Under the pieces are notes generated by a model. That model had not been told where the DNA came from. It saw nothing but the letters and a program-made list of their open reading frames with translations, and did no database searches. This document shows, piece after piece, positions 24,087 through 28,747 of a DNA stretch of 64,000 nucleotides; positions within the stretch are counted from its first letter, which is position 1; each line of letters starts with the position of its first letter. The position numbers and the translations under genes are program-made. The DNA is from Phenylobacterium sp. (GTDB lineage: Bacteria > Pseudomonadota > Alphaproteobacteria > Caulobacterales > Caulobacteraceae): contig JADBYZ010000007.1 in assembly GCA_020402745.1 (NCBI GenBank), forward strand, positions 1 to 64,000. Direction: 5' to 3'.

Positions 24087-25037
24087 TCAGTTACGATCCA
24101 ATGCCGCCCGCAGCCGCTCGACTGATGAACAGGCCGTCTCGAACACAAAGTCGGGACGTGAAGCCGTAACGGGGCCCCGCCCTGCTGCAGAGAGGCGGGC
24201 CGCCACGCGGGCCACGAGATCCACCGGCGCCAAGAGGCCATTCGGCCGCCGCACCGCGCCCAGGGCCTCCAGTTCCGGAAGGATCGGATCTTCGTCCCCA
24301 CCCGGCCAGATGAGGGTCGCCGAGGCGTGCGCCGCCGACCGGGCCTCGAGGATTCTGAGGAGCGATTCGGCCGCCGCCAGACCTTCCGCCGTCCAGTCCG
24401 CCCGGAGTCCGGCCGCCAGCTGAGCCTGGCTCCTGAGGATGACCCCGTCCTCAAGGATCTTCAGGTCGTTGGCCTGGAGGGTCGCACCCGTAGTGGTGAT
24501 GTCGACCACGATGTCGGCGGCGCCCGACGCCGGGGCCCCTTCCGTGGCGCCGCCCGATTCGACGATCCGGTAGTCGGTCACCCCATGACGGGCGAAGAAC
24601 TCGCGGGTCTGGACGAGGTACTTGGTGGCGACCCTGAGCCGCCGGCCGGTACGGACCAGGCGCTCGTGAGCCACCTCCTCCAGGTCGGCCAGGGTCGAGA
24701 CGTCCAGCCAGCTCTTCGGCGCGGCGACCACCAGGTCGGCGCGGCCAAAGCCGAGCGCCCGGAGCAGCAGGGCGGCGGCGGAGGCCTCGGCGCCCTGCTC
24801 GCGCAGGAGGTCCTCGCCCGTGACGCCCAGGTGCACCTCGCCGGAGACCAGGGCCGAGGCGATATCCCCGGCGGACAGCAGCCGCACCTGCACTCCGTCC
24901 ACACCGCGCAGGCGGGCGCGGTAGCCCCGGTCGCCCCCGCTCATGGCGAGGCTGAGGCCACAGTCCTGGAGCCAGGCCTCGACCTGCTCCTTCAATCGCC
25001 CCTTGGAGGGGATGGCGAGGGTCAGGGCGTCGCTCAT
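24087..25037 (-). CDS. hisG: ATP phosphoribosyltransferase catalytic subunit HisG
   Basis: A 316-residue first enzyme of histidine synthesis (ATP + PRPP to PR-ATP). The conserved start A-I-P-S-K-G-R-L, the G-V-T-G-E-D segment (71-76) and the PRPP loop D-I-T-T-T-G-A-T-L (179-187) are present. The catalytic core ends near residue 211, as in short HisG proteins that work with HisZ. However, about 105 further residues follow that do not look like the regulatory domain of long HisG. The start overlaps the hisZ stop by 4 bases (ATGA), so translation is coupled. It is the last gene of hisS-hisZ-hisG, ending at the terminator near 23880. Confidence 0.94.
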   Translation of the reverse strand: MSDALTLAIPSKGRLKEQVEAWLQDCGLSLAMSGGDRGYRARLRGVDGVQVRLLSAGDIASALVSGEVHLGVTGEDLLREQGAEASAAALLLRALGFGRADLVVAAPKSWLDVSTLADLEEVAHERLVRTGRRLRVATKYLVQTREFFARHGVTDYRIVESGGATEGAPASGAADIVVDITTTGATLQANDLKILEDGVILRSQAQLAAGLRADWTAEGLAAAESLLRILEARSAAHASATLIWPGGDEDPILPELEALGAVRRPNGLLAPVDLVARVAARLSAAGRGPVTASRPDFVFETACSSVERLRAALDRN

Positions 25038-26167
25038 GATCCCGTCTCCGCAATGGCCCGTCGGGGCAGGACCATGCCGCCCAGGGCCGACCCCTTGGCC
25101 GCACCAGACCCCGACAGGCGCGCAGGAAGACCGTCGTACCGTCCTCCCGCCGCCACGGGTCGGTCCGGGCCCAGGGCCCCGGACAGCACCTCGAACACCA
25201 GGCCGTCGTAATAGGCGAAATCCCCGCGGGGGGCGGCCTCGAAGATCGCCGGCGCAGCGCCGGCGGGGACCGCCTCGATCCGGTCCAGGCGCCGGTTCCA
25301 GTCCGACAGCCTCGCCTGCAGAGCCGTCGCCCCGGGAGCGAGCCGGGCGAGCTGATCGAGAGCGGGGCGAGGCGCATCGCGGATGGCCAGGAAGGTGCGG
25401 ATGGCGTCGGCCTGGGCCCGGGACAGGGCGGGGGCCCGCGCCGCTTCCGCCCGGCGGACCAGGCGGCCAGAAATCTCTGCTGCGCTGCGGCCGCCGACGG
25501 GGGTGATTCCCGCGAGCGCCCAGATCTCCTCCAGAAGGGCTGCAGCCTCATCGGGCGGCAGAGCGCCGAGCCGGCGGGCGATCACGTCATCTGTGTCTGC
25601 GACAGGAACGCCCCCGTCGGTCCGGTCCAGCTCCGCCGCCAGCTGGCTGGGCCGGGCGGCCATGCGGACCAGACGCGAGGCCAGGACAGGGTTCAGGCCG
25701 AGGGTGTCCACGAAGGTCGGAAAGAGGCCGGCGTCGCCCAGGCGCAGGGACAGGTCGCCCCGCCCCCCGGCGACGGCGGCGCGCCAGATGAGATCGACCA
25801 GGCCGGCGTCCGCCACTGCGCGGTTAGCGTCCGGGGCGAAGCGCTCAATGCCGACCTGCAGGACCTCTTCCGGCTCGTCAGCAGAGGCCCGGAAGACCAG
25901 GCCCTCATAGGCATAGTCGCCGGCTATCGCGCCGGACGCCAGGTGCAGGCGGGCGACGGGGGTGGTGAAGTCGGGCCGCAGACAGACCTCCTCGCCGCCA
26001 GCAGCCTGGAGCACGAAGAGTCGCGAGCGCAGGGCCTCTCCAGCCAGGTCGAGGATGAGCGACAAGGGCTGCAGGACCGGCGGCTGCACCCAGGCGGCGC
26101 CGGTGGCGCGGAAGGGTGCGCGGAGGGCTTCGAGGCGGGCCTCCGGAAGGCGCAAACCAAGCGTCAT
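25034..26167 (-). CDS. hisZ: ATP phosphoribosyltransferase regulatory subunit HisZ
   Basis: A 377-residue paralogue of the HisRS catalytic domain without synthetase activity. Motif-2-like C-L-R-P-D-F-T-T-P-V-A-R, a late F-A-Y-Y-D-G-L-V-F-E-V and A-A-G-G-R-Y-D-G-L are seen. HisZ binds HisG and gives histidine feedback control. It lies between hisS and hisG with 4-base overlaps on both sides, which strongly supports a single operon in which the synthetase, its relative and HisG are made together. Confidence 0.93.
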   Translation of the reverse strand: MTLGLRLPEARLEALRAPFRATGAAWVQPPVLQPLSLILDLAGEALRSRLFVLQAAGGEEVCLRPDFTTPVARLHLASGAIAGDYAYEGLVFRASADEPEEVLQVGIERFAPDANRAVADAGLVDLIWRAAVAGGRGDLSLRLGDAGLFPTFVDTLGLNPVLASRLVRMAARPSQLAAELDRTDGGVPVADTDDVIARRLGALPPDEAAALLEEIWALAGITPVGGRSAAEISGRLVRRAEAARAPALSRAQADAIRTFLAIRDAPRPALDQLARLAPGATALQARLSDWNRRLDRIEAVPAGAAPAIFEAAPRGDFAYYDGLVFEVLSGALGPDRPVAAGGRYDGLPARLSGSGAAKGSALGGMVLPRRAIAETGS

Positions 26168-27663
26168 TGCGCCTCTCCGAGGATGCGGCGGACCACGCCG
26201 ACCAGCTGGTCGCGGGGGACCGTCTGCTGGCCCGGGCGCTCGGCCCGCCAGGCCGCGTTGTCGGTCACGTCCGAGGCCAGGGCGCGGCCGAGGTCGAGGT
26301 CCTTCACCGTGACGGTCCCGGCGGCGATCTCGTCTCCGCCAAGGATGACCGCCGCGGGCGAGAGACGGCGGTCGGCATACTTCATCTGCGCCTTCATTCC
26401 CGAGGCGCCGAGATAGACCTCGGCGGCGATCCCGGCGGCCCGGAGCTCGGCGGCCACGCCGAAATAGGCCTCCATGTCGTTGGGCGAGAAGGCGATGACG
26501 ACCACGGGGCCCCTCGCCTCCCGCCCAGCGTCGCGGCCGGCGGCGCGCAGGGCGGCGGCCAGACGGGAGACGCCGAAGGAGAAGCCCGTGGCGGGGGTGC
26601 GCTCGCCGGTGAAGCGGGCGATCAGGTCGTCGTAGCGACCGCCGCCGCCGACGGAGCCGAACCGCGCGGGCTGGCCCTTCTCGTCCAGGATCTCCAGCCG
26701 CAGCTCGGCCTCGAAGACCGCGCCGGTATAGTACTCCAGCCCCCGGACAACCGAAGGATCGAAGACCGCGCGGTCGGCGCCGACGCCCATGCCGGCCAGA
26801 GCCCGGTCAATGCCCGCCAGCTCTTCCAGGCCTGCGTCGCCCTCGGCCGAGCCGCCAATGACCTCGGCGATGCGCCGCAGGGTCTCAGCCCGGTCCCCGG
26901 CCCCGGCGGCGGTGAAGGCCAGGACGGACTCGCCGGCGGCGGCGGAAAGGCCCGCGCCCCGGGTGAAGGCGCCGGACTCATCCTTGCGCCCTTCGCCCAG
27001 CAGCAGGCGGACACCCTCGGGGCCCAGCCGGTCGAGCTTGTCCACGGCCCTCAGGACGGCGAGCTTCTGGCCCTCGTCGGCCACGCCAGCCCGGTCGAGG
27101 AGACCATTGAGGAGGCGGCGATTGTTGATCCGCAGGACATAGCCGCCTTCGGGCAGGCCGGCGGCGGCCAGGCCCTCGGCGGCCATGGCGATGATCTCGG
27201 CGTCCGCCTCGGGCCGGGCCGAGCCCACCGTGTCGGCGTCGCACTGGGTGAACTCGCGGAACCGGCCGGGGCCGGGCTTCTCGTTGCGCCAGACCGGACC
27301 GTAGGCGTAGCGCCGGAAGGGCTTGGTCAGCCCCTCGCGGTTCTGAGCCACGAACCGGGCGAGGGGCGCGGTGAGGTCGTAGCGCAGGGCCATCCACTGG
27401 TCGTCATCGTCCTGCAGGGCGAAGACACCCTCGTTGGGACGGTCGGCGTCGGGCAGGAACTTACCCAGGGCGTCGGCGTATTCCAGGGCGCCGGTGTCGA
27501 GGGCTTCGAAGCCGTAGCGCTCATAGACCTCGGCTACGCGGGCCAGGATCCGGCGCTCGGCGGCCAGGTCGCGGGGGCGGCGGTCCATGAAGCCGCGGGG
27601 GGCGCGGGCCTCGGGCCGGGGCGCGTCCGCAGCGGCTTCGGTGGGGGTGTCGGGGGTGGTCAT
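26164..27663 (-). CDS. hisS: Histidyl-tRNA synthetase, alphaproteobacterial type
   Basis: A 499-residue class II synthetase. Motif 2 reads V-W-R-N-E-K-P-G-P-G-R-F-R-E-F-T-Q-C-D-A-D. The HisA motif is R-G-L-E-Y-Y-T-G-A-V-F-E-A rather than the usual bacterial R-G-L-D-Y-Y, and G-G-G-G-R-Y-D-D-L is motif-3-proximal. These changes match the divergent HisRS of many alphaproteobacteria that charge a tRNA-His lacking G-1 (established for Caulobacter; inferred here). The C-terminal anticodon-binding domain spans about 400-499. It is the first gene of the operon and is preceded by a His-codon-rich leader frame. The overlap with hisZ is 4 bases. Confidence 0.95.
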   Translation of the reverse strand: MTTPDTPTEAAADAPRPEARAPRGFMDRRPRDLAAERRILARVAEVYERYGFEALDTGALEYADALGKFLPDADRPNEGVFALQDDDDQWMALRYDLTAPLARFVAQNREGLTKPFRRYAYGPVWRNEKPGPGRFREFTQCDADTVGSARPEADAEIIAMAAEGLAAAGLPEGGYVLRINNRRLLNGLLDRAGVADEGQKLAVLRAVDKLDRLGPEGVRLLLGEGRKDESGAFTRGAGLSAAAGESVLAFTAAGAGDRAETLRRIAEVIGGSAEGDAGLEELAGIDRALAGMGVGADRAVFDPSVVRGLEYYTGAVFEAELRLEILDEKGQPARFGSVGGGGRYDDLIARFTGERTPATGFSFGVSRLAAALRAAGRDAGREARGPVVVIAFSPNDMEAYFGVAAELRAAGIAAEVYLGASGMKAQMKYADRRLSPAAVILGGDEIAAGTVTVKDLDLGRALASDVTDNAAWRAERPGQQTVPRDQLVGVVRRILGEAQ

Positions 27664-27687
27664 GGTCCTATCCCTTGGGTTGGCCAG

Positions 27688-27733
27688 GGACGGAGCCGCC
27701 GGCCGGCCCCGTCCGCATTGCGCGGGGGCCGGC
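27688..27733 (-). promoter_or_regulatory. Candidate attenuator structures before hisS
   Basis: Downstream of the leader-peptide stop the transcript can form a 9-bp GC-only stem (27725-27733 with 27702-27710, loop of 14). It can instead pair GGACGG (27709-27714) with CCGTCC (27688-27693). The two overlap and exclude each other. A further UCCCU/AGGGA pairing could mask the hisS ribosome-binding region. There is no U-tract, so control may be translational or Rho-dependent rather than by an intrinsic terminator. No folding program was run. Confidence 0.45.
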
Positions 27734-27746
27734 GCCGGAGGTTCGA

Positions 27747-27824
27747 TCAGGCCGAACGCACCCGCCCGCTCCCGCTTTCGCAGGTCGGATGGTGGAGGCC
27801 GTGGTGGTGGACCTGACGGAGCAT
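27747..27824 (-). CDS. hisL: Putative histidine-operon leader peptide
   Basis: A 25-codon frame starting with ATG at 27824 and ending with TGA at 27747, between the SDR gene and hisS. Residues 6-8 are His-His-His and residues 11-12 His-His, so five of seven consecutive codons are histidine. This is the design of leader peptides that sense charged tRNA-His, and it lies 83 bases upstream of histidyl-tRNA synthetase and two his genes. Alternative RNA hairpins follow the stop codon. An AGGGA lies 8 bases before the ATG, and a Caulobacter-like promoter at 27832-27862 would give a very short or leaderless 5' end. Function is inferred. Confidence 0.65.
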   Translation of the reverse strand: MLRQVHHHGLHHPTCESGSGRVRSA

Positions 27825-27831
27825 GGGTCGG

Positions 27832-27862
27832 GTCCCTAGCCCATCGACGCCGGGCCGTCCAG
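27832..27862 (-). promoter_or_regulatory. Candidate housekeeping promoter for hisL-hisSZG
   Basis: On the minus strand a -35-like CTGGACGG is followed after 14 bases by GCTAGGGAC. This is close to the Caulobacter sigma-73 pattern TTGACGS-N10-14-GCTANAWC, with mismatches in both boxes. The -10 is so near the hisL ATG that the transcript would be almost leaderless. Confidence 0.4.
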
Positions 27863-27886
27863 TCCCGGACCCGGCGCCCGCCGGGC

Positions 27887-28747
27887 TCACGGCAGGAGAT
27901 CGAGGTCCGGGGTCCGGTAATCCATGCCGGCGAGGGCCTGGCTCCGGTCGGCGGAGTCGAAGCCCGCCATGATCCCCTGGAAACGCATCTGGACGAAGGG
28001 TCGCATGTCCGGGTGGGTGAAGATGTAGAGGTCGCCGGCCTGTAGGGCCTCCAGCACCCGGGCGCCGACCCGGGCCGGGTCGATGCCGTTCGCCACCCGG
28101 TCGTCCGGGACGATCTCGCGCACCTGGGGCCCGCCGAACTTGGCCGGGCGGTTGCGGCCCGACTGGTTGATGCGGGTGCGCACGAAGCCCGGGCAGAGGA
28201 CCTGGACCTGGATGTTCTCGGCCGCCAGCTGGGCCGCCCAGCCTTCGGTCAAGGCCACGACGGCGAACTTGGAGGCGCTGTAGGCCTCCATGCCCGGGGG
28301 CGACATGTGGCCGGCCATGGAGGCGGTGTTGATGATCGCCCCGCCCTCTCCGTGGGCGCGGATGTGGGGCAGGAAGGCCTCGAAACCGTAGATCACCCCC
28401 ATCAGGTTGACCTGGAAGGTCCAGTCCCAGTCGGCGGGCTTCATCTCGTCTGCGGTCCCGCCGGCGCCCACGCCGGCGTTGTTGCACAGGACGTGGACCT
28501 TGCCGAAGGCGGCCACCGTCTCGCGGGCGGCGGCGACGAGGGCGGCGCGGTCGGTGACGTCGCACTGGACGGCGGCCACGCGCACCTGCCGGGCCTCCAG
28601 CTCGGCCACCGCCCGGGCCAGGGCCTCGGTCTCGATGTCGGCCAGCATGACGTTCATGCCCGCGGCGCCGAAGGCTTGGGCCATGGCCAGGCCAAGGCCC
28701 GAGGCCCCGCCGGTGATGAAGGCGGTCTTTCCCGAAAGGTCCTGCAT
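27887..28747 (-). CDS. Short-chain dehydrogenase/reductase
   Basis: A 286-residue classical SDR. The cofactor loop T-G-G-A-S-G-L-G (12-19), N-N-A-G (89-92), active-site Ser143 and Y156-S-A-S-K160 are all present. Asp37 after the second strand (L-A-D-I-E) suggests NAD(H) rather than NADP(H). It follows the acyl-CoA ligase gene by 20 bases on the same strand and probably forms a two-gene lipid or aromatic catabolic operon with it. The exact alcohol or ketone substrate is unknown. Confidence 0.87.
   Translation of the reverse strand: MQDLSGKTAFITGGASGLGLAMAQAFGAAGMNVMLADIETEALARAVAELEARQVRVAAVQCDVTDRAALVAAARETVAAFGKVHVLCNNAGVGAGGTADEMKPADWDWTFQVNLMGVIYGFEAFLPHIRAHGEGGAIINTASMAGHMSPPGMEAYSASKFAVVALTEGWAAQLAAENIQVQVLCPGFVRTRINQSGRNRPAKFGGPQVREIVPDDRVANGIDPARVGARVLEALQAGDLYIFTHPDMRPFVQMRFQGIMAGFDSADRSQALAGMDYRTPDLDLLP

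Follow-up and report, generated by a model that had tools for sequence, protein, structure and literature searches.

A His-codon leader before hisS in Caulobacteraceae as a likely translational attenuator

Does the short, histidine-rich open reading frame that lies directly ahead of hisS in this DNA act as a sensor of charged His-tRNA, and if so, what does the sensor control? In the window, which here means the whole stretch of 64,000 nucleotides that was analysed, the frame runs on the minus strand at 27747..27824 (25 codons plus TGA, MLRQVHHHGLHHPTCESGSGRVRSA; the frame as read here and kept in relatives). His codons 6-8 of this leader frame lie at 27801..27809 and codons 11-12 at 27789..27794. 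Frame, His codons and stop were re-read as the original prediction had placed them, and the GC-rich inverted repeats that it described after the stop are present.

A gap of 83 nt separates the leader stop from the ATG of hisS (27663) on the minus strand. The gene encodes a histidine--tRNA ligase of 499 aa (26164..27663, minus strand; NCBIfam TIGR00442, 385.3 bits against a cut-off of 286.75) and shares an ATGA overlap with hisZ, for the ATP phosphoribosyltransferase regulatory subunit (25034..26167, minus strand), whose best NCBIfam match, NF008949, scores 402.8 bits, slightly under the cut-off of 420. A further ATGA overlap joins hisZ to hisG, for ATP phosphoribosyltransferase (24087..25037, minus strand; TIGR00070, 169.1 bits against 75.75). 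Upstream of the leader, the minus strand also carries an SDR oxidoreductase gene, whose end lies at 27887.

Conservation of the leader frame and its upstream region

Within the window, only 2 of the 277 ATG or GTG ORFs of 20-30 codons hold at least five His codons, and HHH occurs solely in the leader ORF. Similarly, in 80 hisS loci with 2571 ORFs counted, ORFs of 20-30 codons with five or more His and an HH pair gather ahead of hisS, where 37 lie no more than 320 nt from the hisS match, as against 5 in all other positions. The original prediction depended on the frame and its His codons being conserved in relatives, and this was borne out: a His-run ORF of 23-26 codons was found in 113 of 181 hisS upstreams, the window included (80 named loci, 100 family genomes and the window, the two sets partly overlapping). 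Removal of 21 duplicates left 92 rows that are distinct over 150 nt, and 51 representatives were kept at <85% identity. The covariance model R1, built on these 51 representatives, adds 4 leaders (L107, L045, L134 and L167) among 65 of the 68 remaining upstreams; L045 and L134, with the same score, seem to be one record. Four ORFs had failed the leader filter (L072, L076, L078 and L107), of which L107 was later recovered by the model, and three loci with at most 122 nt upstream (L060, L064 and L075) were scored as leader-less and kept out of the model search. When the fetched genomes are grouped by genus label and R1 matches are counted, the leader is present in all 36 genomes of the window's genus, in all 35 that carry the label g22 and in 8 of the remaining 29.

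The codons themselves are informative. Between five and seven His codons are found in 88 of the 92 leaders, and among codons 4-15 in the 51 representatives, those of the CAN type comprise CAC 178, CAT 117, CAG 5 and CAA 1, or CAY 295 against CAR 6. The fourfold third positions of the same 51 ORFs are G 309, C 271, T 79 and A 11. Judged by its sequence, the codon run is maintained as His codons, and conservation together with the codon pattern rules out a chance ORF. As such, the locus has the short ORF of cognate codons, kept in relatives, that is expected of an attenuator.

The original prediction also suggested that the transcript would be nearly leaderless, which fits the upstream region of relatives. 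The CTA of a -10 element resembling GCTATAG lies 14-17 nt ahead of the leader start in 82 of the 92 distinct sequences, so that the transcript is expected to start at or near the leader start codon, and 4 of the 92 have a Shine-Dalgarno-like sequence ahead of the leader. In the window, the candidate -10 element is GCTAGG (27835..27840, minus strand; 11-16 nt before the leader ATG), a weak form of the relatives' GCTATAG. A sigma-70-type scan, the model of which is of the E. coli type, found no promoter, and the near-leaderless claim therefore rests on the conserved -10-like element of the relatives. Leaderless mRNAs are described as frequent in Caulobacter (PMC4117421).

A second promoter-like pair stands close before the hisS-proximal ATG in 51 of the 181 upstreams (49 at -35/-36 and -13/-14). 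It consists of TTG at -35/-36 with CTA or GTAA at -13/-14, for example in L015, L016, L017, L018 and L019, and it suggests an additional leaderless hisS transcript, in which case the leader would not be the sole control at those loci. By eye, no such pair was seen in the window.

Predicted competing helices and the hisS start

The strands of the enteric his leader are named A to F, and its logic sets the pairings A:B, C:D and E:F against B:C and D:E. Six strands in the same order can be laid out in the window, all on the minus strand. Strand A (CCGACCTGC, codons 13-15) lies at 27780..27788, strand B (GCGGGAGCGGGCGGG and the next leader codons) at 27753..27775, strand C (from the leader stop to GCCGGCCCCCGC) at 27722..27746, strand D (GCGGACGGGGCCGGC) at 27702..27716 and strand E (GGCTCCGTCCCTGG) at 27684..27697. 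Strand F (AAGGGATAGGACCATG) at 27661..27676 contains the Shine-Dalgarno-like AAGGGA, which pairs in E:F, and the hisS start codon.

To examine these pairings, the native duplex energy was compared across the 51 representatives with 5000 partner permutations, which disregard kinship. A:B was weak, with z -2.2 (68 of 5000 permutations as good), and the other neighbour pairings reached z -4.6 (B:C), -6.7 (C:D), -7.2 (D:E) and -4.7 (E:F), with 0 of 5000 as good in each case. The non-neighbour controls A:C, B:D, C:E and D:F, which share the same kinship, gave z 0.4, -0.3, 0.3 and -1.3 in the same representatives and so no specificity. In alignment A1, the share of cells that can pair is 85.5% for A:B, C:D, E:F and 86.4% for B:C, D:E, and it drops to at most 55.0% once the columns are slid by 1-3.

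The covariation counts are more mixed. Cells changed on both sides number 38 against 14.0 in shuffles for the first form and 49 against 22.2 for the second, with 0 of 500 shuffles as high, and at the D:E pair 106-134 the 51 rows show UA 24 times and CG 22 times, with four rows unpaired and one gapped. This pair sits in a bulge of C:D and thus supports D:E. On a hisS tree of 34 rows, which omits L023, L036 and L051, it is concordant in 34 of 34, with 3 changes needed and 1 forced by supported branches. Double-change pairs, on the other hand, show no clear excess (66 of 500 and 23 of 500 shuffles as high in the two forms), and further pair types in the form B:C, D:E show none (361 of 500 as high). 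Of the alignment proposed in the original prediction, in which both the His-run frame and the paired stems of the hisS upstreams should be retained and covary, the frame and the neighbour pairings were upheld, but some of the covariation counts were not in clear excess.

In the window itself, the whole leader is no more stable than its shuffles (z -0.52, 58 of 200 as good), so that folding of the single sequence would have revealed no structure. Folded by itself, the E:F stretch reaches -15.6 kcal/mol and pairs the Shine-Dalgarno AAGGGA (z -1.25 against shuffles); when D is added, D:E replaces E:F at -29.9 kcal/mol (z -2.72), and the two helices thus compete for E. Mutually exclusive helices, as expected of an attenuator, are backed by comparison, with A:B as the weak member. 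They include a helix over the Shine-Dalgarno sequence and start together with a competing helix that frees them, which is the arrangement of a translational attenuator.

The consequence of ribosome position was modelled at equilibrium and 30 C by masking the leader from its 5' end to 12 nt beyond the A-site codon and reading out the cost of opening the 18 nt before the controlled start plus its ATG. Across the 51 representatives, the mean opening cost was 6.65 kcal/mol with the ribosome on His codons, 9.52 with the ribosome on the leader stop and 8.8 without a ribosome, and the minimum, 5.5, was found when the A site stood in the His run, 14 codons short of the stop. His positions were cheaper than the stop in 48 of 51, by >1 kcal/mol in 42 (Wilcoxon p 1.7e-9, kinship ignored), and L109 was the sole representative reversed by >1 kcal/mol. 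By computation, a ribosome on the cognate codons thus shifts the switch towards expression in those 48. The effect was lost on shuffling the stretch from the leader stop to the start region (six sets, mean difference -0.43 to 0.47), and a cruder accessibility measure agreed in direction, with a weaker signal (32 of 51). For the window, opening cost 11.9 kcal/mol with the ribosome at the stop and 11.7 with none; on the His codons the cost was 6.5 (codons 11-12) and 7.4 to 9.7 (codons 6-8). The minimum, 4.5, lies at codon 19, so that the optimum does not fall exactly on the His codons.

The start codon that would be controlled in this way lies next to F, 79-101 nt past the leader stop in 51 of 51 representatives. 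It reads into hisS in 40 and opens a separate ORF of 17-27 codons in 11 (L008, L010, L011, L012, L014, L022, L051, L090, L094, L098 and L124), the stop of which falls at -10, -9 or +4 of the hisS ATG. Such an intervening short ORF would suit translational coupling to hisS.

The reading that we favour, and hold to be likely, is that of a ribosome-dependent attenuator which senses His-tRNA and governs where the ribosome starts on hisS, that is, the initiation of its translation; the ATGA overlaps probably extend this control to hisZ and hisG. We infer that the transcript would begin at the leader ATG or a few nt away. With ample His-tRNA, the ribosome would reach the leader stop and cover B, whereupon C:D and E:F would form and the Shine-Dalgarno sequence and start of hisS would be concealed. 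With scarce His-tRNA, it would stay on the His codons, covering A and leaving B exposed, so that B:C and D:E could form, F would be freed and the operon could be translated. The last helix would conceal the ribosome-binding site rather than end transcription. The earlier reading of a His-sensing leader is supported, and four observations are added to it here, namely the six-strand chain, the spacing of 79-101 nt, the second promoter-like element of relatives and an Rfam annotation on the opposite strand.

Alternatives to translational output

The same His sensor could instead have a transcriptional output, in which C:D would be a terminator or Rho would act when hisS is untranslated, with E:F secondary. 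The competition of B:C with C:D does resemble classical attenuators, and a T-run follows C:D in related-looking leaders of other genes (e.g. L187, L189 and L227). However, a terminator scan of 27600-28000 returned 0 sites, which agrees with the absence of a U-tract noted in the original prediction. In the 51 representatives, the stretch after strand D has a maximum of 5 T per 8 nt and reaches at least 4 T in just 10, and E:F pairs specifically with the start region. We consider this output unlikely, though it deserves more weight than the other alternatives; C:D as an ordinary terminator was rejected, the downstream stretch being T-poor in most of the 51. The original prediction had left the mechanism as translational or Rho-dependent, and the position of the last helix over the hisS start region fits that expectation.

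Another explanation is that the conserved element is, or is also, an antisense or independent sRNA on the strand opposite hisS. The Rfam family RF01528 (CC3513), described as an sRNA, spans the leader interval in relatives on the strand opposite the hisS leader and scores above the gathering score in five of them (L032 2757-2930, L038 2789-2951, L017 2677-2840, L008 2685-2849 and L011 2712-2878, minus strand in each). The CC3513 sRNA reportedly goes back to Landt et al. in 2008. The match in the window (27711-27848, plus strand) is weak, at 15.4 bits where the gathering score is 40, and L164, L147, L158 and L037 are likewise under the gathering score, with no match at E 1 in L162 and L120. Furthermore, the codon pattern, the -10 element and the pairing of the Shine-Dalgarno sequence are all meaningful when read on the hisS strand, which is also favoured by the G-U against A-C cells of D:E (85:11), whereas the other ratios are undecided on strand (A:B 8:17, B:C 17:18, C:D 13:13, E:F 9:5). 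We hold this explanation to be very improbable. Either Rfam lists RF01528 in the wrong orientation or there is an antisense RNA as well, and both RNAs may be made; the finding calls into question the strand or the nature of an Rfam sRNA family.

A role of the ORF by reinitiation or through a peptide product, with no histidine sensing, can practically be set aside, for although a reinitiation role of leader genes has been proposed in general (PMC4833913), it leaves unexplained the 5-7 His codons of 88 of 92 leaders, the gap of 79-101 nt and the competing helices.

The proposed translational attenuation in response to His-tRNA has several counterparts among known systems. Identity with a T-box or with the Rfam his leader, which we take to be RF00514, was rejected, with no match at 27400-28200 up to E 5. 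The element shares the His-run leader, and the strand logic given above, with the enteric his attenuator (hisL). It differs in having no intrinsic terminator with a U-tract in the window or the 51 relatives, in placing the last helix over the ribosome-binding site and in having hisS, and not a biosynthetic gene, as its first gene. In enteric his, the ribosome is described as reading His-tRNA along a His-run leader (PMC3896937). In bacilli, His leader peptides precede hisZ and a hisS paralogue, which is similar in having a His-run leader ahead of genes of the hisS family; they were found through terminators, in Firmicutes, and the source reports no likeness of the leader sequences beyond that group (PMC2965389). 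The leaderless polycysteine ORFs of mycobacteria (Canestrari et al., 2020), which are described as setting downstream translation by attenuation (PMC9031893), resemble the present leader, which is probably near-leaderless, as short ORFs with runs of cognate codons. They differ in amino acid, phylum and controlled genes; the comparison covers the ORFs and their output.

Attenuators in which a structure hiding the ribosome-binding site replaces the terminator are an acknowledged kind (PMC9413887), and an output through a hidden ribosome-binding site would be shared with translational attenuators and T-boxes as these sources describe them (PMC9413887, PMC1262725, PMC3896937). For example, the leader of hisDCB in C. 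glutamicum may hide the Shine-Dalgarno sequence in a T-box-like manner (PMC3896937). Unlike the present leader, the actinobacterial examples named there are T-boxes that bind tRNA directly. Within the same family, leader CDSs are described before the amino-acid genes trpS and ilvIH of Caulobacter, and the main text of that source does not name hisS (PMC4117421). A literature search of main texts, with few subscription papers among them, found no hisS leader described for Caulobacteraceae. The sensing principle is already known; the novelty lies in the output and the setting. If the proposed mechanism is true, the locus would be a compact natural case of the textbook his helix chain ending in translational control, in a group that is rich in leaderless mRNAs and includes the model organism Caulobacter crescentus, and a single sensor would serve both the synthetase and HisZ-HisG, the first biosynthetic enzyme.

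Operon context and distribution

Among the 80 named loci, hisZ lies downstream on the same strand in 37 of 37 loci with the leader, and 30 of 36 leader-less loci of at least 6.9 kb have neither hisZ nor hisG there. Of 100 fetched genomes, 21 are leader-free, one of these (L183) having just 332 nt upstream. In 17 leader-free genomes that were tested, hisZ gave no match in 8, which are all eight that were tested under the genus labels g3 and g14 (4 each), and stands beside hisS with no leader in the other nine (9 of 9). A hisZ elsewhere with a leader of its own, which had been expected in leader-free genomes, was thus rejected. Since hisZ may lie beside hisS with no leader, the operon arrangement alone is not decisive, and the association of leader and hisZ may be largely attributable to kinship. 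In leader-bearing relatives, the sRNA CrfA (RF01527) is annotated by Rfam about 2.3 kb after the hisS match on the same strand (L032 6750-6884, L038 6769-6904, L036 6714-6848, L008 6682-6807, L017 6686-6812 and L011 6670-6797, plus strand in each).

Beyond the family, R1 has matches in 8 of 385 genomes of the class, the window's included, and hisS was absent by tblastn from the 8 other R1 loci (L186-L193, 7 genomes). In a draw of 100 genomes of the order, 17 have R1 matches, comprising 11 hisS leaders (E <1e-10), 5 of the asd type and 1 (G652) that is unconvincing. With gene names assigned by eye from the translations, Thr-rich leaders precede a thrS-like ORF in L186, L189 and L191, and the Thr/Lys leader of L193 precedes an asd-like ORF. 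Of that set, these readings cover L186-L189, L191 and L193, and L187 gave no clear result. Leaders with Thr, Lys and Ile stand before asd-like genes, also by eye, in L193, L228-L232, L234 and L235, with the exception of L229, which is of the same type; L188 was read as L234. Elsewhere in Alphaproteobacteria, L227 appears by eye to carry a leader before a GNAT-like gene with an ilvC-like gene further on.

When the energy model was applied to 11 other leaders, with the cognate residues of L227 and L233 guessed, the supposed cognate codons were cheaper than the stop in 8 and dearer in L229, L230 and L189; given these mixed results, the wider set is not claimed as shown. A broader proposal, which we offer tentatively and would not expect to hold in full, is that Caulobacteraceae made the six-strand his attenuator purely translational with a leaderless leader. 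It would be a member of a wider alphaproteobacterial set (thrS, asd and GNAT leaders) with shared strand order and spacing, in which either a terminator or a helix that locks the ribosome-binding site serves as the exchangeable output, and CC3513 would be a wrong-strand entry or a tuning antisense RNA.

In other families, a compact His-rich ORF near hisS was found in L220 alone among 13 hisS upstreams from 12 genomes. In this small genome, MKNIVLNHTHHHTHAKHGLGN precedes the hisS match by 202 nt, and a tRNA-His gene (507-583) occupies part of the interval. An ORF flagged in L208 (TTG start, -414) was rejected as not leader-like, and of six further upstreams of the family (L221-L226), one (L225) has the leader. 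A second leader copy in the window's genome was sought and rejected, the hisS copy alone being clear (E 4.9e-15; next 0.047). That next match, L233 (G000:C42:25600-25742, minus strand; R1 E 0.047), has MVRAEALAGSNSNGPPGVVRTRTP before a GNAT-like gene and a stop-to-start distance of 92 nt, like that of the hisS leader, and reads as a possible non-His leader.
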